From a virus, in the IMG/VR virus record IMGVR_UViG_3300046012_000348, positions 1 through 37,731 of that record: a stretch of 37,731 nucleotides of DNA; one strand, written 5' to 3'. Each line of letters opens with the position of its first letter. Positions within the stretch are counted from its first letter, which is position 1. Under the pieces are notes generated by a model. That model worked only from the letters and a program-made list of their open reading frames with translations, did no database searches and was not told where the DNA came from. The position numbers and the translations under genes are program-made. Positions 26,059 through 33,810 of the stretch are shown one piece after another.

Positions 26059-27945
26059 ATGCAGCTCCCCGGCAGGCGTCAGACGCCCCGTGCCGTCACC
26101 GCGTCGGCGGCGCGCGCGACGATCAACAACTCCGCCTCCATGCGCCGGCTCGTGCAGCCGTGGCAGGAACGCGCGCTCGGCTACTACGACAGCCTTGGGC
26201 CGATCAAGTTCGCCGGCGGCTTCTACAGTCGCGGCCTCACGAAGCTGCGGATCTTCCCGGCGATACTCGACGACAACGGCGAGCCGCAAGAGACCGAGGA
26301 CAAGACGTTGCGGGAGTTGCTCGACCGGGTGCAGGACCCCAACGGCGGCCGCACGAATCTCCTCGGCACCTACGGGCGGCTGCGGTTCCTGATCGGCGAG
26401 TCGTACCTGGTCTGCACGTTCGACGACGAGATCGGCGAGAAGTGGGAAATGCTGTCGGTCGACGAGCTGCGCGTGAACTCGTCAGGCACCTACACGCGGA
26501 TGATGGCGCCGCAGCTCGGGACATCCGAGCTGAAAGCTGTGCCGGACGACGAGTTCGAGCCGTTGCCGGACAGCGCGATCGTCTACCGGCTCTGGCGTCC
26601 CCACCCGCGCTTCTCTCTGCTCGCCGACTCGTCCGTGATGGGGATCCTCGACGAGTGCGAGGAGCTTCTGCTTTTGCAGGCCGCCGTCCGTGCGCGTGTC
26701 CGTTCCAGGCTTGCCGGCAACGGCATGCTTGTGATGGCCGCTGACATCTCACCTCCGCCGCTCGAGGTCGTCGGCGACGAGGACATGCCGGCGGACCCGT
26801 TCTACGCCGACCTGATCGACCATCTGACCGCCCCGATCCGAGACGAAGGATCAGCGTCCGCGGCGGCACCGCTGCTGCTCCGCGTCGACAAGACCCTCGT
26901 GAAGGACGGCTTCAACTTCCTGTCGTTCCGCGATCCGAACGAGGAATACCGCGAAGCGAGCCTGCGCGACGAGTGCATACGCCGGATCGCGATCGGGATC
27001 GATATGCCACCCGAAGCGCTGACCGGCGTGGGGACCGTCAACCACTGGGGGGCATGGACGATCGACGAGCAGATCTGGAAGGCGCACCTGCAGCCCGTCG
27101 CACAGGAGTTCGCCGACGACGTCACCTCCGCCTACCTTCGCCCCGCCGCCCGCGACGCCGGGTTCACGGATTGGCAGCGGGTCGTCGTAGCCTACGACGC
27201 CGCCGAAGCGATCAACCACCCCGACCGGGCGAAGGACGGCAAAGACCTGTACGCCGCCGGTGTGATCGGCAAAGCCGCGTTGCGCGAAGTGACCGGCTTC
27301 GACGACACCGACGCGCCCACCGAGCAGGAACGGGCCGAAAGCATCGGCATCAAAACCCGAGACTCGTCGCTCGCCTGGTACGGCATCCCATCCGTGCGTG
27401 CCGGCGGCCTGGAGCCGGAACCGGGCGAAGTCGAGAACGCCCAAGGCTCCTCGGCTGATCCTGCCGCCCCGACTGTCGGCTCCGAGGTCGAAGCTGGCCC
27501 GCCCGAGGGTGGCCCGTCCCCGATCACCGCCGCGGTTGTGCTGGATCCGCTGCTCGGCCGTGTGCTGGGCGCCGCGGAACTGGCGGTCGAGCACGCACGC
27601 AAAACGGCGGGGTCGCGGCTGCGGACACGGGCGAATAACGGCTGCCCGTCGTGCAAGGAGCGTCTGGTCGATGTGCCGCAACAGCTTGTCGCGGCGACGC
27701 TCGGCCGTGAGCAGGTGCGCGCGTTGAACGCGCCGGCCGAGCTCGAGCTGGTCGCGGGGTCGGGGCTTCCGTTCGTTGCGATGCTGACCCGCTGGGGCTA
27801 CCCGTCCGACCAGGCGGCGGCGGTCGGCGCACAGGTGGAGCATCACGCGGCCCGCACCCTGTACGAGGCCGAGCCGGAAGGTTTGCCGGCCGGTTTCACT
27901 GAGTGGGTGCAGCGGCTCGGCGTTGAGGAGCCGGTCGCGGCGTGA
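26059..27945 (+). CDS. Portal protein
   Basis: A 628-aa predicted portal (head-tail connector). The sequence reads through typical portal elements: YYDSLGPIKFAGGFYSRGL, then LLGTYGRLRFLIGESYLV, IVYRLWRPHPRFSLLADSS, the long helix EELLLLQAAVRARVRSRL, and the stem helix ECIRRIAIGIDMPPEALTG, followed by VNHWGAWTIDEQIWK. The C-terminal part (about residues 520-628) is a Pro-rich linker then a helical barrel-like end with C-P-S-C. It is the ring DNA passes through. No good ribosome-binding site is seen; the ATG lies 20 bases after a degraded TTGCAAAC-GTTCCC copy of the operator. Confidence 0.8.
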   Translation: MQLPGRRQTPRAVTASAARATINNSASMRRLVQPWQERALGYYDSLGPIKFAGGFYSRGLTKLRIFPAILDDNGEPQETEDKTLRELLDRVQDPNGGRTNLLGTYGRLRFLIGESYLVCTFDDEIGEKWEMLSVDELRVNSSGTYTRMMAPQLGTSELKAVPDDEFEPLPDSAIVYRLWRPHPRFSLLADSSVMGILDECEELLLLQAAVRARVRSRLAGNGMLVMAADISPPPLEVVGDEDMPADPFYADLIDHLTAPIRDEGSASAAAPLLLRVDKTLVKDGFNFLSFRDPNEEYREASLRDECIRRIAIGIDMPPEALTGVGTVNHWGAWTIDEQIWKAHLQPVAQEFADDVTSAYLRPAARDAGFTDWQRVVVAYDAAEAINHPDRAKDGKDLYAAGVIGKAALREVTGFDDTDAPTEQERAESIGIKTRDSSLAWYGIPSVRAGGLEPEPGEVENAQGSSADPAAPTVGSEVEAGPPEGGPSPITAAVVLDPLLGRVLGAAELAVEHARKTAGSRLRTRANNGCPSCKERLVDVPQQLVAATLGREQVRALNAPAELELVAGSGLPFVAMLTRWGYPSDQAAAVGAQVEHHAARTLYEAEPEGLPAGFTEWVQRLGVEEPVAA

Positions 27946-30470
27946 ACACCGCTGCGTTCAACCGGCATCTCGAGACGGGACGTGTGCGGGCGGAAGAACA
28001 TTTGGCGGCGCTCGAGCGCGGCTACCGGCTCACGCTGCGCGCGGCGGGCAGGCATGCGGCCGACCGCTTCTCCGCATTGGCGACGGATCATTTGACGGCA
28101 GCCGTCGATCCGAAGTGGTCGCCGCCGGAAGAGTCGCAACTGTTGAACGGCGAGACGATGCAGCAGGACGCACGGAAACGCACACTGGCGGCCCGCAAGA
28201 ACACTCTGAAGGCCGTGATGGCACCCGCACTCGCGGAGGTCGGGGTGGGGTTCGACCTGACGAACCCGTTGATCGCCGGGCTCGTCGACGGTCTCGGCGC
28301 CCGCACCACCGACCTCGGCGACGCGATCAGCGCGCAGATCGCGCAGGCGGTCGCGGACTCCTACCAGCAAGGCCTGTCGATCCCGAACACCGCGGCGGCG
28401 ATCCGGGCGGCCGTCGACGGCATCTCGGATGTGCGCGCCACCATGCTCGCCCGCACCGAAATGATTTCGCTCGTAAACGGCGGCTCGATCGCCGCCGCAC
28501 GCCTCGTCAACGGCGCTGCCGATGGGGGCGAGCCGCAGGTCGGCTACAAACGCTGGCTCGCGACAGAAGACGAACGAACACGGGAGACGCATGCGGAGGC
28601 GGACGGCCAGGTCGTCGCGATCGACCAGCCTTTCCAGGTCGGCGGCGAACAAGCGGACTTCCCGGGCGACCCAGGCCTGAGCGACGAGGAAGCGATCAAC
28701 TGTTTCCCCATGGACACGAAGGTCGAGTTCCCAGGGCTACGAGCGGTGATGCGTCGGCGGTACGAAGGAGATCTCGTTCGCATTCGCCTCTCCTCCGGAA
28801 ACGAACTCGCCGGTACCCCGAATCACCCGGTATTGAGGTCTGACGGGGAGTGGGTTGCTCTTGGCGATCTCCAAGAAGGCGAGTATCTCGTCTGCGCAAG
28901 CGGCGTTGGGCAGGCGCCGGGAACACCAGACCCAGATCGTCCACCATCCGAGATCGGCGAGGTCTACCGTCTTGCGAGCGCTGGTGCTGAGCCCCATCGG
29001 ATACGCCTTGCTCCACCAGACCTCCACGGCAACGGGGCGCACGGTGAGGTCGACGTTGTAGCCGTAGACGGGAGTTTGCTCATCGACAGCGAGGCCGCGA
29101 CCGATGAGCAGGTCACGGAGTTCGGGTTCGCCGTTGCCGACTACGCGCGCGCGGGCGAGCGCATTTGCGATACGCAAATCGGAGGTTCTCACGCGAGGGC
29201 TGCGACCCTTCCGTCTGGCGGCATTCGCGGCAAGCGCGAGCTCTCGCCGTTCAGAATCCGTGAGTCGGCTCATGCGGAGCAGGTTCGCTTCGGAGCCGGA
29301 TCGGATCGGAAGCCCCAGCTCCTTGAGCCGACGCGTGACGACCTGCCTGCTCGTTCCGAGCGCCTCGCTTATGGCGAGCACGCTTTCCCCGCGCTCGTAT
29401 CTCTCGCGCAGATCACCAAGGTCGAGCGCCACGCGTTTCACGGGGACGTAGGGGACATCGACACAGGTCACGGATGGTACACCAGCGAGGGAGTAATCGT
29501 GAAAAACTGCCGCTGCACCGTCACGTATCTCGAAGCAGCCGAAGCCGTCAGCGAAACCGAAGACATGGCGCTCGCCGCCGCATCAGCCCCAGAAGTCTCG
29601 AACCTCGCGATGGTCGCCGTCTATCCGCGCTTCGAGGAGGCCCAGACACTCGCCACCCCCGAAGGACAGGATGCTGGAAGTCTGCATGTGACGCTGCTGT
29701 TCCTCGGCGAGGCAGACGCGCTTGACGCACCCCGAGCACATCAGGTGGCCGGATCAGTCGCGCAGTCCCTCCCACCCCTCGACGGAACGGTCGGAGGTGT
29801 CGCGAGCTTCGGCGAGACGCCCGACGGCTACCCGGCGATCGTCCTGCCTGACGTCCAGGGGCTTTCGACGCTGCAGGAAGCTGTGCGCTCGGCGCTCGCC
29901 GACGCCGGAATCGAGTCTCCGTCCGAGCACGGATTCCTGCCGCACATGACTCTCGACTACGCCGACACCGCAACCCCTCCCGACGAGGAGGCGATCGGTG
30001 CGCCGCTGCACTTCGACGCGCTATCGGTGGTGGTCGGAGGAAAACGCACCGATTACCAGTTGGCGGCCTCTACCGAATCTCCGACCGACGCTGTAGCCTC
30101 TGGAGGACACATGGCCGAGTCACCCCAAGACACCCTGACGGCCGACGTGACAGTCACGGTCGGAGACAGCACCGCCGCCGAACAAGCCGACGATGCCGCG
30201 CAGGTTCGTTGGCAGGCGGTGTTGTGCGTCGAAGGGGAGCCGACGGAGGACGGACGGATGTTGGAGGCCGGGTCGATCACCTGGCGTGACCTGCCGCTGT
30301 CGCTCGGCGTGATGTTCGAGACCCCCCATTCGTTCGAGGCTTCCGCGGAGATCGGCGGCCGCATCGACCGCATCTGGCGTGACGGCAACCTGATCCGCGG
30401 CGAAGGCGTCTTCACGCAAGACGACGTCGGCCGGCGTGCCGCCTGCTGTTCGTCGTCACCGAGGGTGTGA
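27942..30470 (+). CDS. MuF-like head protein with intein, 2H domain and protease start
   Basis: An 842-aa ORF, GTG start overlapping the portal stop. Residues 1-253 and 523-530 are a MuF-type head morphogenesis protein, with a conserved ATMLARTEM helix and the signature INCRCT split by an intein (Cys254 to Asn522). After splicing, 573 residues remain. Residues about 555-705 are a 2H phosphoesterase (LigT-like) with HVT (582-584) and HMT (668-670). From Met724 (30111) it reads in frame into a capsid protease N-terminus. MuF proteins are injected or structural head components; the 2H part could cleave 2',5'- or cyclic nucleotides. There is no stop between MuF and protease, but a strong ribosome-binding site precedes 30111. 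Confidence 0.8.
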   Translation: MNTAAFNRHLETGRVRAEEHLAALERGYRLTLRAAGRHAADRFSALATDHLTAAVDPKWSPPEESQLLNGETMQQDARKRTLAARKNTLKAVMAPALAEVGVGFDLTNPLIAGLVDGLGARTTDLGDAISAQIAQAVADSYQQGLSIPNTAAAIRAAVDGISDVRATMLARTEMISLVNGGSIAAARLVNGAADGGEPQVGYKRWLATEDERTRETHAEADGQVVAIDQPFQVGGEQADFPGDPGLSDEEAINCFPMDTKVEFPGLRAVMRRRYEGDLVRIRLSSGNELAGTPNHPVLRSDGEWVALGDLQEGEYLVCASGVGQAPGTPDPDRPPSEIGEVYRLASAGAEPHRIRLAPPDLHGNGAHGEVDVVAVDGSLLIDSEAATDEQVTEFGFAVADYARAGERICDTQIGGSHARAATLPSGGIRGKRELSPFRIRESAHAEQVRFGAGSDRKPQLLEPTRDDLPARSERLAYGEHAFPALVSLAQITKVERHAFHGDVGDIDTGHGWYTSEGVIVKNCRCTVTYLEAAEAVSETEDMALAAASAPEVSNLAMVAVYPRFEEAQTLATPEGQDAGSLHVTLLFLGEADALDAPRAHQVAGSVAQSLPPLDGTVGGVASFGETPDGYPAIVLPDVQGLSTLQEAVRSALADAGIESPSEHGFLPHMTLDYADTATPPDEEAIGAPLHFDALSVVVGGKRTDYQLAASTESPTDAVASGGHMAESPQDTLTADVTVTVGDSTAAEQADDAAQVRWQAVLCVEGEPTEDGRMLEAGSITWRDLPLSLGVMFETPHSFEASAEIGGRIDRIWRDGNLIRGEGVFTQDDVGRRAACCSSSPRV
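28737..29471 (-). CDS. Antisense Vsr-like homing endonuclease inside the intein
   Basis: A 244-aa ORF on the - strand covering almost all of the intein. It reads as a real protein: a helix-turn-helix (GESVLAISEALGTSRQVVTR, about residues 28-50), a basic linker, then a PD-(D/E)XK/Vsr-like core with GYNVDLTV (Asp141) and VAVEVWW (Glu150) and upstream Glu115/Glu117. The usual His of the EDxHD homing family is not evident (KAYP instead). It ends with PQYRVIRGTGEFVS. The GTG at 29471 is nominal; the GTG twelve codons in (29438) is better placed relative to a possible promoter. It would cut intein-less MuF alleles and drive homing. Family assignment is from sequence pattern only. Confidence 0.7.
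   Translation of the reverse strand: MTCVDVPYVPVKRVALDLGDLRERYERGESVLAISEALGTSRQVVTRRLKELGLPIRSGSEANLLRMSRLTDSERRELALAANAARRKGRSPRVRTSDLRIANALARARVVGNGEPELRDLLIGRGLAVDEQTPVYGYNVDLTVRPVAVEVWWSKAYPMGLSTSARKTVDLADLGWWTIWVWCSRRLPNAACADEILAFLEIAKSNPLPVRPQYRVIRGTGEFVSGGEANANEISFVPPTHHRS
29474..29503 (-). promoter_or_regulatory. Possible promoter for the antisense endonuclease
   Basis: On the - strand TTCACG (29498-29503) lies 18 bases from TACCAT (29474-29479), the same spacing as the phage promoters. The dyad is absent. It lies within intein/extein coding DNA. Confidence 0.3.
30111..30470 (+). pseudogene. Capsid maturation protease, N-terminal remnant
   Basis: An ATG with GGAGG 5 bases upstream opens a 119-codon frame, also read through from MuF. 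It matches the beginning of actinophage capsid proteases: RWQAVLCVEGEPTEDGRML, ITWRDLPLSLGVMFETPH (possible catalytic His), GGRIDRIWRDGNLIRGEGVF, DDVGRRA. It then stops at once. The region that normally carries the catalytic Ser (GVSVDL-like) is missing, and the next recognisable protease text, FVVTEGVIGAATVCPYQA, continues in another frame from about 30446. A deletion with frameshift is likely. Confidence 0.6.
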
Positions 30471-31146: not shown

Positions 31147-33810
31147 ATGGCGAGCGTCGACAAGCAGACGAGGGCGCTGATCGTCGACCTCGAGGAGAGA
31201 CTCGGCGAGATCCCGGCCGGCCCGCAGGGCGACAAGGGCGACAAGGGTGACCGCGGCGATAAGGGAGAGAAGGGCGACAAGGGCGATCCCGGCGAGAAAG
31301 GGCAGCGCGGCTTCTCAGGCTCGGGCGCTGTTGGTGCTGCCGGCCCGCCCGGCGTTGGTGTTCCGGCGGGTGGCACGACCGGGCAGGTGTTGGAGAAGGC
31401 GTCGAACACGAACTTCGACACCGGCTGGGTTGACCCGGCGGGAGGTTCACGGCCGGATGTGACGGATGGCGTCACCACGGTCGCGGCACCCGCGGCGATC
31501 GAGTTCGTCGGCGCGACGGTCGCGGATGATGCTGGCAACGCGCAGGTGACGGTGGTGGGTGGTTCCGAGACGTTGGCGGAAGTGCTCGCGAACGGTGCGG
31601 ACGCGGGCGGAGCGACGATCGACGGGCTCGCCGATCCGACGCTCGACCAGCAGGCCGCGACGAAGGCATACGTGGATGCGAACGACGGTTCCCAGACCGC
31701 CGCCCTGGCCGCCGAAACCGCCGCGCGCGAGGCCGCAGACGCCGGACTACAGCCACTCGACTCGGATCTCACCGCCATCGCGGCGCTCTCGACGACGGCC
31801 TACGGTCGAGCGATACTCGCGCTCGCCGACGCGGCTGCGCTGCGCGCCGCCGCCGCTCTCGGGACCGCAGCGACCTCGGCCACAACCGATTTCGACGCCG
31901 CCGGCGCGGCCGCCGCTGCCCAGGCGGCGTCGCAGCCGCTCGACAGCGACCTGACGGCAATCGCGGCGCTGGCGACGACCGCGTTCGGCCGAGCCCTCCT
32001 CACCACCGCCGACGCCGCCGCCGCACGGACGGCGACCGGGGCGATCAACCGCGTTCAGGACGCGACCGACGTCACGGTCGCCTCGCTCGCTCAGGGCGAC
32101 CTCCTCCACTACGACTCTGCCACCTCGAAGTTCAAGAGCGGCCGCCGCGAGAGCTACCTAAAGGTCGAGGACTACTACGACTCCGGGTCGGTATCAACAG
32201 ACATAGGGCCGGCGATCAACAGGGCGATCACAGCGGCGGCCGCATTGACGACCCCGACGAAGGTGGTCATGCCCGCGGTTAGCGCGCCGCTCGCGACGGC
32301 GATCACGCCGGCGAACTACGTCTCGCTGATCGGGCAGGGCTGGGGCAAGACGGTGCTGCGTATCACCGGCGGTATTCACGGCATCACCCTGCTCGGCGCG
32401 AAAGCCACCCCGCTTCTCGGCGTCGACTTCCAGGACTTCGAGATGGACTGCACCGCCCAGACCGGGCTCAACAAGGCGATCTTCATCCAGTGGCTTCGAC
32501 GCTGCCGTTTCGAGCATCTCTACATCCATCAGGCTGGCGCGACGGGGCTCGGCTGCGACTTCCTCGTCGATTGCCTTCTCGACGACATCTTCGCCGACAG
32601 TTGCGGCGCGGCCGGATCGGGATCGTCGGGCGGCTGCGCAGGCGTCGGGATCGGCACCTACCAGGCATCCGACTGGTACGGCGCGCTGACGCTCCGCTCG
32701 ATCGTGTCGCGCAACAACAAGCGGGCCGGGATCTTCTTCGAGACGCAGACAGTCTCGGCCGGAACCGCGTTGCAGGAGGGCGTGAAGGTGCTGGCGGCGG
32801 ACTGCTCATACAACGGCGACCACGGGATCGGAGACGCTGGCTGCACCGGCCTCGAGGTGATCGGCGGCCACAGCCACCACAACGGCGGCAACGGTTTCTG
32901 CGTCTACGCCGGGACGATCAGTTCGGGCACGCCCGGAGACGAGGGACTCGTCACCGGGCTCGACAGCCACGACAACACCGGCATCGGTTTCTACTTCGAC
33001 GGCTCCTCGAAGCTGCCGGGCAGCTACACCCTCCGCGGTGTCAAAGCCCGCTCGAACGGGACATACGGCATCCAGGTGTTCGACACCGCCACCGGGACAC
33101 AGGCTCGGTTCACCGTCCAAGACAGCGACTGCGAACTGAACGGCAAGGCAGGGATCGCAGTGATCGGCTCATCAAGCACCGTCGACCAGGTGCAACTGAT
33201 CGGTAACCGGTTGCGTGCGAACGGGCAGAACGGAGCCGCGAGCGCGGAGACGCGCGCCGGGATTTACCTGGGCGGCACGATCACAAACGCGATCGTCCGA
33301 GACAACCGCGCCTACGACGACCAGGGCAGCCAGACGCAAACCTACGGGTTCGTCGTCGCGACGAGCGCGTCGGTGACGAACCTCGACGAACGCGACAACG
33401 ACTGGCGCACCAACCTGACCGGCGCCCGCGACATCGCCGGGACCGTCTCCGGGACCGTGTACCGGCAGCGCAACCGCGGCGACGACGCAGCCGACGCGAT
33501 CCTCGCCGCGAACAACCAGACCGGCACCACCTACACCCTCGCGCTCGCCGACGCTGGCGAGGTCGTCGAACTGAACAACGCATCCGCGATCACCCTCACC
33601 GTCCCACCGAACTCCTCGGTGGCGTTCCCGATCGGCGTCGTGGTCGAGCTCTTCCAGCAGGGAGCGGGACAGGTGACCGTCGCCGCCGGTGTCGGGGTCA
33701 CGATCCGCAGCCCCTCGAGCAAGCTGAAAATGACAGGCCAGTACGCGGGCGCGTCGCTGCGCAAGCGCGGAACGGACGAATGGACGCTCGAAGGGAACCT
33801 CTCCGCGTGA
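31147..33810 (+). CDS. Collagen-like tail fibre/tailspike with beta-helix
   Basis: An 887-aa fibre protein. Residues about 25-70 are G-x-y collagen-like repeats (GDKGDKGDRGDKGEKGD). Two copies of the tail-fibre repeat QPLDSDLTAIAAL occur near 195 and 258. A right-handed beta-helix (about 400-760) has pectate-lyase-like coils (LDSHDNTGIGFYF, VQDSDCELNGKAGIAVIG), and a C-terminal beta domain (TLALADAGEVVELNNASA) may be a trimerisation or chaperone tip. The N-terminal collagen stalk would extend the spike from the virion. Receptor binding or polysaccharide degradation is likely. It is unusual to find it between protease parts in the head module. Confidence 0.8.
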   Translation: MASVDKQTRALIVDLEERLGEIPAGPQGDKGDKGDRGDKGEKGDKGDPGEKGQRGFSGSGAVGAAGPPGVGVPAGGTTGQVLEKASNTNFDTGWVDPAGGSRPDVTDGVTTVAAPAAIEFVGATVADDAGNAQVTVVGGSETLAEVLANGADAGGATIDGLADPTLDQQAATKAYVDANDGSQTAALAAETAAREAADAGLQPLDSDLTAIAALSTTAYGRAILALADAAALRAAAALGTAATSATTDFDAAGAAAAAQAASQPLDSDLTAIAALATTAFGRALLTTADAAAARTATGAINRVQDATDVTVASLAQGDLLHYDSATSKFKSGRRESYLKVEDYYDSGSVSTDIGPAINRAITAAAALTTPTKVVMPAVSAPLATAITPANYVSLIGQGWGKTVLRITGGIHGITLLGAKATPLLGVDFQDFEMDCTAQTGLNKAIFIQWLRRCRFEHLYIHQAGATGLGCDFLVDCLLDDIFADSCGAAGSGSSGGCAGVGIGTYQASDWYGALTLRSIVSRNNKRAGIFFETQTVSAGTALQEGVKVLAADCSYNGDHGIGDAGCTGLEVIGGHSHHNGGNGFCVYAGTISSGTPGDEGLVTGLDSHDNTGIGFYFDGSSKLPGSYTLRGVKARSNGTYGIQVFDTATGTQARFTVQDSDCELNGKAGIAVIGSSSTVDQVQLIGNRLRANGQNGAASAETRAGIYLGGTITNAIVRDNRAYDDQGSQTQTYGFVVATSASVTNLDERDNDWRTNLTGARDIAGTVSGTVYRQRNRGDDAADAILAANNQTGTTYTLALADAGEVVELNNASAITLTVPPNSSVAFPIGVVVELFQQGAGQVTVAAGVGVTIRSPSSKLKMTGQYAGASLRKRGTDEWTLEGNLSA

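Follow-up and report, generated by a model that had tools for sequence, protein, structure and literature searches.

A probable homing endonuclease gene lies codon-on-codon on the antisense strand of a phage MuF intein

Canonical large inteins carry an in-frame LAGLIDADG or HNH domain, so that the endonuclease shares the reading frame of the splicing domain. The fractured genes of Dassa and colleagues (2009) are reportedly a variation, with split inteins around a separate endonuclease gene of the EDxHD/Vsr-like type. In phage ShiLan, an out-of-frame HNH insertion is described in a methylase gene, on the same strand (PMC11855218). Nuclear group I introns of Didymium carry an antisense His-Cys homing endonuclease gene (HEG) for which both expression and cutting are demonstrated (PMC9548176), and a phage intron survey mentions EDxHD/Vsr enzymes (PMC12350094). 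Here we analysed a viral DNA of 37,731 nucleotides (IMG/VR record IMGVR_UViG_3300046012_000348; "the window" denotes this whole stretch), in which an intein inside a MuF-type head morphogenesis gene is overlapped by a nuclease gene on the opposite strand. Both reading frames, the separate selection on them, the intein and nuclease folds, the empty and filled alleles, and the occurrence both at several sites in MuF and in one deaminase-like gene were computed directly. We read them with high confidence as a mobile intein that carries the gene of its homing endonuclease codon-on-codon on the opposite strand; this gene would be transcribed there, and the two products would splice the host protein and cut DNA for homing.

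The host gene (27942-30470, + strand) matches Pfam Phage_Mu_F (E 1.6e-11) and a PHROG head morphogenesis family. Its insert of 269 residues, from Cys1 to Asn269, occupies 28701-29507 (+ strand) at EEAIN/CRCT (the slash marks the insertion point). All 807 bases are stop-free within the + open reading frame (ORF), as the original prediction, made from the letters alone, had stated. The insert matched Pfam Intein_splicing with E 2.3e-7 (31.2 bits, under the curated cut-off of 35.8) and TIGR01445 intein_Nterm of NCBIfam with E 5.3e-6, over that model's cut-off. The splicing residues are complete in the window: Cys1 (28701-28703), the TxxH of block B as TPNH (28815-28826), and Asn269 with Cys+1 in the C-terminal splicing blocks (29430-29510, all + strand). 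Cys1, His42 and Asn269 are invariant among the 32 sequences of alignment A5, and the residue next before Asn269 is Lys, not His. The AF2 model of the intein has a mean pLDDT of 66.9. It is confident over most of residues 1-68 and 230-269 (ends mostly >90), and falls below 50 in the central linker, residues 127-226 (29079-29378), which is predicted to be disordered. Performing Foldseek searches with this model, we found the RecA, RadA and GyrA inteins on top (E 1.6e-3 to 1.1e-2, probability 1.00). By sequence and model, the insert is an intein with the HINT splicing fold, and it is presumably active in splicing.

In the plus-frame centre, a Pfam scan detected no endonuclease and no other family. 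We rejected an in-frame endonuclease because the plus frame has no endonuclease family match and the enzyme is antisense, and a split or fractured intein because a single plus ORF is open in the window and in the relatives with both ends on the contig. Separately, we observed that the match to PHROG 15127, "head protein", is confined to the intein (28701-29144, E 2.7e-24); the family thus seems to contain sequence of intein origin, and annotation drawn from it may be misleading.

The minus strand carries an ORF of 244 residues at 28737-29471, start codon uncertain. The two frames are codon-on-codon: each triplet of the plus frame, read in reverse complement, is a triplet of the minus frame, plus position 1 faces minus position 3, and the first 12 and last 12 intein codons lie outside the overlap. 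A putative helix-turn-helix (HTH; residues 20-58, 29298-29414) is indicated by a match to Pfam HTH_58 (E 1e-3, below the cut-off) and by resolvase HTH_7 matches, at E up to 0.1, in 12 of 20 nuclease family members. The predicted Vsr/EDxHD-like core spans residues 109-228 (28788-29147). Family profile A1 matched the "Mobile intron protein" 3r3p (I-Bth0305I; E 6.5e-6) and 3hrl (E 4.3e-6), and profile A4 matched the same structures (E 6.5e-4 and 9.1e-6). The AF2 model of the nuclease has a mean pLDDT of 87.8. Aligning it by VIA-align, we found Vsr (1cw0) to be the closest, with Z 10.4, a root-mean-square deviation of 2.7 and 108 residues aligned, followed by I-Bth0305I (Z 9.8) and 3hrl (Z 9.5); mitoribosome and SurE rows with Z 5-9 in the same output were counted as fold resemblance only. 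Foldseek alone ranked 3r3p first (E 1.6e-3). The putative active site (29022-29129) comprises E115, D141 and E150 with Y138-N139. Y138, N139, D141 and E150 are invariant, and E115 is at least 90% conserved, in an alignment of 20 nuclease sequences. The same pattern holds in 35 sequences, for most of which the search pattern itself required YN. Of the E-D-x-H-D set, E115, D141 and E150 are conserved, and no His is invariant in the 20 or the 35 sequences. In sequence and model, the minus-strand product is an HTH protein with a Vsr-like nuclease fold and is likely to cut DNA. The claim that the antisense ORF encodes an HTH and a Vsr-like core thus stands, its homology to Vsr/EDxHD enzymes being visible in the family-level profile matches and the VIA-align score.

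This arrangement recurs in other phages. Performing tblastn searches, we found relatives of the minus protein in 104 of 50,697 phage records and matches to the plus intein in 98. From both lists, 19 phage loci with the nuclease were chosen for diversity (L004-L018 and L020-L023), to which L064, L066, L067 and L068 were added. An open plus intein frame with an antisense nuclease was present in 23 of these 23 fetched loci. The GC content of the first 19 ranges from 0.34 to 0.68, and the layout is kept at 0.34-0.50. The annotation shown for these 19 assigns no gene to the antisense ORF. At least one further record, that of Salmonella phage PK2, has it as a "hypothetical protein" within the head gene, and the PK1 and vB_StyS-sam records list hypothetical proteins under the match. 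We also assembled loci by nuclease sequence alone (36 further IMG/VR loci, 3 from GTDB, plus L001 and L002; 41 rows, that is 40 distinct contigs with one occurring twice, some of them near-copies). The opposite frame was stop-free across the match, over 199-336 codons, in 41 of 41 rows. Among the 40 host ORFs scanned, all 40 matched Pfam Intein_splicing and 25 matched Phage_Mu_F. The insertion points include HPN/CRC-type MuF sites, a TCAx/CW site and a TSTT/CRARD site. Thus, every examined locus carrying the nuclease has the antisense layout.

Some single loci deserve mention on their own. The "head morphogenesis" gene of Virus Rctr197k (L066, KX853510.1) is dCMP deaminase-like and contains an antisense-nuclease intein. 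A stretch labelled plasmid III of Candidatus Promineifilum breve (L064) has phage head genes, and its minor head gene holds such an intein. Xanthomonas phage FoX3 (L069) has an intein in a helicase-like gene that is labelled "head morphogenesis", a name perhaps wrongly acquired through the intein; the FoX3 intein gave no antisense match to the nuclease profile. Searches for relatives with intein P0003 and with P0004 found none in viral contigs.

We checked for empty sites using flank-joined queries. The joined flanks aligned unbroken and at equal length in 60 of 60 among the best 60 of 109 Gordonia records, and likewise in 60 of 60 among the best 60 of 171 coliphage and Salmonella phage records; the lists run best-first, so these counts mean that intein-less alleles abound and do not give their share. 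The accessible part of the announcement of phage Snoke (L004) describes K1ind2 as being without the intein, and an endonuclease goes unmentioned there (PMC6776784). These alleles bear on the possibility that the antisense protein is real and not a homing enzyme now, having become a domesticated or regulatory HTH nuclease that, for example, excludes rival phages or controls head-gene expression. The doubtful start of the window copy and the HTH-like matches in many members would suit such a role. We nevertheless consider it unlikely, for the enzyme is lodged in an intein that recurs at several sites in MuF and is also found in a deaminase-like gene, the insert is missing from many relatives of the host phages, and the core is nearest to Vsr and the intron enzyme I-Bth0305I.

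Given the phase of the frames, plus position 1 is the minus wobble and plus position 3 the plus wobble, so the constrained strand can be read directly. Comparing six non-overlapping pairs of loci (L010/L011, L022/L023, L008/L051, L024/L025, L009/L020 and L046/L052), we counted 184 minus-wobble versus 83 plus-wobble changes in the centre (p 6e-10), and 11 versus 48 in the first 60 codons (p 1e-6). Two further non-overlapping pairs with 63-67% identity, L041/L047 and L056/L053, are not among the six; L041/L047 gave 76 versus 54 in the centre and 21 versus 30 at the N end. Pooling 24 of 25 non-identical pairs, which are below 97% identity and not independent (L010/L011, above 97%, was left out), the changes at minus wobble, middle and plus wobble were 1460:488:895 in the centre and 277:94:370 at the N end. 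Codon statistics therefore do not favour the plus strand alone; in the centre, changes fall mainly on the minus wobble.

We further performed a two-way shadow test on diverged pairs, in which one protein is fixed, its synonymous codons are resampled and the excess likeness of the other protein is scored. It covered 50 of 60 inteins; the truncated L057 and L033, the near-copies L027, L038, L054 and L011, the partial L053 and L061, L062 with its long insert, and L052, taken for broken, stayed outside. The frame of L052 is intact, and among the loci no broken nuclease was proven. The plus excess was 1.3-2.0 over codons 0-60, 0.5-0.9 over codons 85-135, 0.08-0.23 over codons 135-235 and 1.1-1.7 over codons 235-269, while the minus excess was 0.9-1.6 across codons 35 to 235. 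The single-coding control of 48 exteins gave 0.94 for plus and 0.09 for minus. This shows that each frame is under selection of its own. True dual coding covers about codons 35-60, 85-135 and 235-252 (28806-28880, 28956-29105 and 29406-29456), and is limited because the plus centre (about 29079-29378) is modelled as disordered and is almost without selection of its own. The original prediction that the antisense gene overlaps both splicing halves and imposes dual coding was right only to a degree. Dual coding takes in block B and a portion of block F, while much of the overlap falls on a flexible linker. A functional domain in the plus-strand centre, which would make the whole insert dual-coded, is accordingly quite improbable. 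The plus excess over codons 85-135 and the confident AF2 elements around residues 80-100 point towards one, against the near-zero excess over codons 135-235, the pLDDT below 50 over residues 127-226 and the lack of any family found there.

Stop codons were also counted. The minus frames of 52 of the 60 inteins (L027, L038, L054, L011, L057, L033, L053 and L061 dropped) had 0 TTA/CTA/TCA in 14,557 codons versus 295 expected from extein usage; as inteins were picked from open plus frames, this gauges the cost of openness, and the unconditioned figure is the 41 of 41 above. In the stop-to-stop frames of the nuclease-only sample there were 13 such codons versus 224 expected, all past the match and none inside. 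The idea that the minus ORF is a mere shadow of a coding plus intein, kept open by GC content and codon-on-codon correlation, is hardly credible and was rejected on the wobble counts and the two-way test with its extein control: the high GC content of the insert (0.63), the codon-on-codon phase, which favours long antisense ORFs, and the exteins' only 66 TTA/CTA/TCA in 5,760 codons speak for it, but the layout persists at GC 0.34-0.50, the minus excess over codons 35-235 is about 10 times the extein control or more, most centre changes fall on the minus wobble, and the nuclease fold and residues are conserved.

Several observations weigh against an antisense homing endonuclease. The pair L056/L053 runs in the wrong direction at the N end (18 minus-wobble versus 15 plus-wobble changes; centre 66 versus 50), and pooled changes in the C-terminal 60 codons are near even (364:145:392). 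GC content by codon position is a mild pointer only: it is 0.76/0.53/0.67 in the window centre, and 0.70/0.47/0.63 in the first 60 codons of the window intein, without the high third position of the extein (0.83). Single-sequence matches of the window nuclease are weak (HTH_58, as above; MTES_1575, E 0.32), and Foldseek gave no match below E 1e-3 for the nuclease model or the intein model. The Snoke annotation places a terminator between the enzyme and the nearest gene running in its direction, and no enzyme-strand promoter was seen in this one locus scanned. Finally, the window has GTC (29447), without a Shine-Dalgarno sequence, at the start position of its relatives. The true start of the window copy is thus uncertain; this copy may start elsewhere or be impaired.

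Start signals were scored in 48 of 51 loci. The GTG at 29471 that gives 244 residues is the choice of the ORF finder. At the conserved start position, 42 of the 48 have ATG or GTG and 6, the window included, have neither. This position is the His codon of block F, and 36 of 42 use CAT, the antisense of ATG, compared with 14.2 expected from local usage. A Shine-Dalgarno match of at least 5 bases lies upstream in 23 of 48 loci versus 14% in synonymous resampling. In L006, L022 and L023, which the motif missed, GAGG precedes an ATG that lies 3 nucleotides further along. Genes upstream of the nuclease are co-directional in 6 of the 19 annotated loci (L004, L009, L010, L012, L015 and L020), so read-through could supply the nuclease message; the remaining 13 have no co-directional upstream gene annotated within the stretch shown.

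We propose that the sense frame would yield a MuF precursor in which the two ends of the insert fold as a splicing domain and excise themselves. Over most of its centre, the sense frame would simply run through the enzyme gene in reverse complement, as a disordered linker free of stops. The HTH and Vsr-like nuclease would be made from its own antisense message and would cut intein-less alleles at the conserved insertion site, and repair would then copy the element in. The choice of strand may separate two programmes, with late transcription giving the splicing protein and the virion, and opposing transcription giving the cutter.

A second enzyme type was observed in Gordonia phages Lennon (L019:1501-2091) and Barsten (L063), whose MuF intein has an antisense LAGLIDADG-like enzyme. 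The Lennon intein is inserted at the same position in MuF; it is related to the family in its splicing part (profile E 1.7e-16) but has a different centre. The antisense ORF has a LAGLIDADG-like motif by eye (Pfam LAGLIDADG_3, E 0.26) and weakly resembles I-MsoI (E 1.3e-3 over the full chain, with significance in no individual stretch). It was not convincingly matched by the Vsr-like profile (E 0.03) or by single members (best E 0.055), and its relatives in Cyanophage PP and Caulobacter phages are annotated as endonucleases. Between Lennon and Barsten, changes at minus wobble, middle and plus wobble were 51:6:16 inside the ORF (p 2e-5 for 51 vs 16), 4:4:15 before it and 8:13:19 after it. The Lennon/Barsten enzyme is clearly under minus-strand constraint.

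Elsewhere in the window, the C-extein has a 2'-5' RNA ligase/LigT-like domain (29670-29987, + strand; Pfam 2_5_RNA_ligase2, E 1.3e-12), and a large + ORF at 31147-33810 has a collagen-like Gly-X-Y run close to its N-terminus.

On balance, we lean towards regarding antisense homing inteins as a class that is widespread but has gone unrecognised. It would comprise at least two families of nuclease, one Vsr-like and one LAGLIDADG-like, lodged antisense in inteins whose splicing domains are related and whose centres differ. Even sister Gordonia phages would have different ones at a single MuF site, through separate capture or swapping. The arrangement departs from the rule that an intein endonuclease shares the splicing domain's reading frame, and would uncouple splicing from cutting, evolutionarily and possibly also temporally. 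It offers an explanation for the "large inteins" of Salmonella, Escherichia and Gordonia phages in which no endonuclease has been recognised, and it yields new candidates for site-specific nucleases. The antisense pair is unusually well supported because dozens of diverged copies let selection be measured per frame. Our literature search found no antisense endonuclease described inside an intein; a 2025 preprint on "non-canonical" actinophage inteins (bioRxiv 10.1101/2025.01.02.630785) lay outside its reach and may, by its title, describe related cases, so we claim no priority.

Among known systems, I-Bth0305I (3r3p) and Vsr (1cw0, 1vsr) share the nuclease core fold with the window enzyme, which differs in having an N-terminal HTH and in lying antisense to an intein. 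Its gene would resemble the Didymium HEG in encoding a homing enzyme antisense to the element that hosts it; that HEG belongs to an RNA intron of rDNA, lies in a peripheral segment and has no second protein opposite (PMC9548176). The ShiLan insertion is likewise open in the host frame with an endonuclease hidden in another, but it lies on the same strand, has no splicing domain and encodes an HNH enzyme (PMC11855218). Our locus shares with fractured genes an unfused Vsr-like enzyme associated with an intein, and differs in that one continuous plus ORF overlaps the antisense gene. With canonical large inteins it has in common the splicing domain, the precise insertion at a conserved host motif and the presence/absence polymorphism; unlike them, its enzyme is a separate ORF on the other strand, and its in-frame centre is mostly linker.

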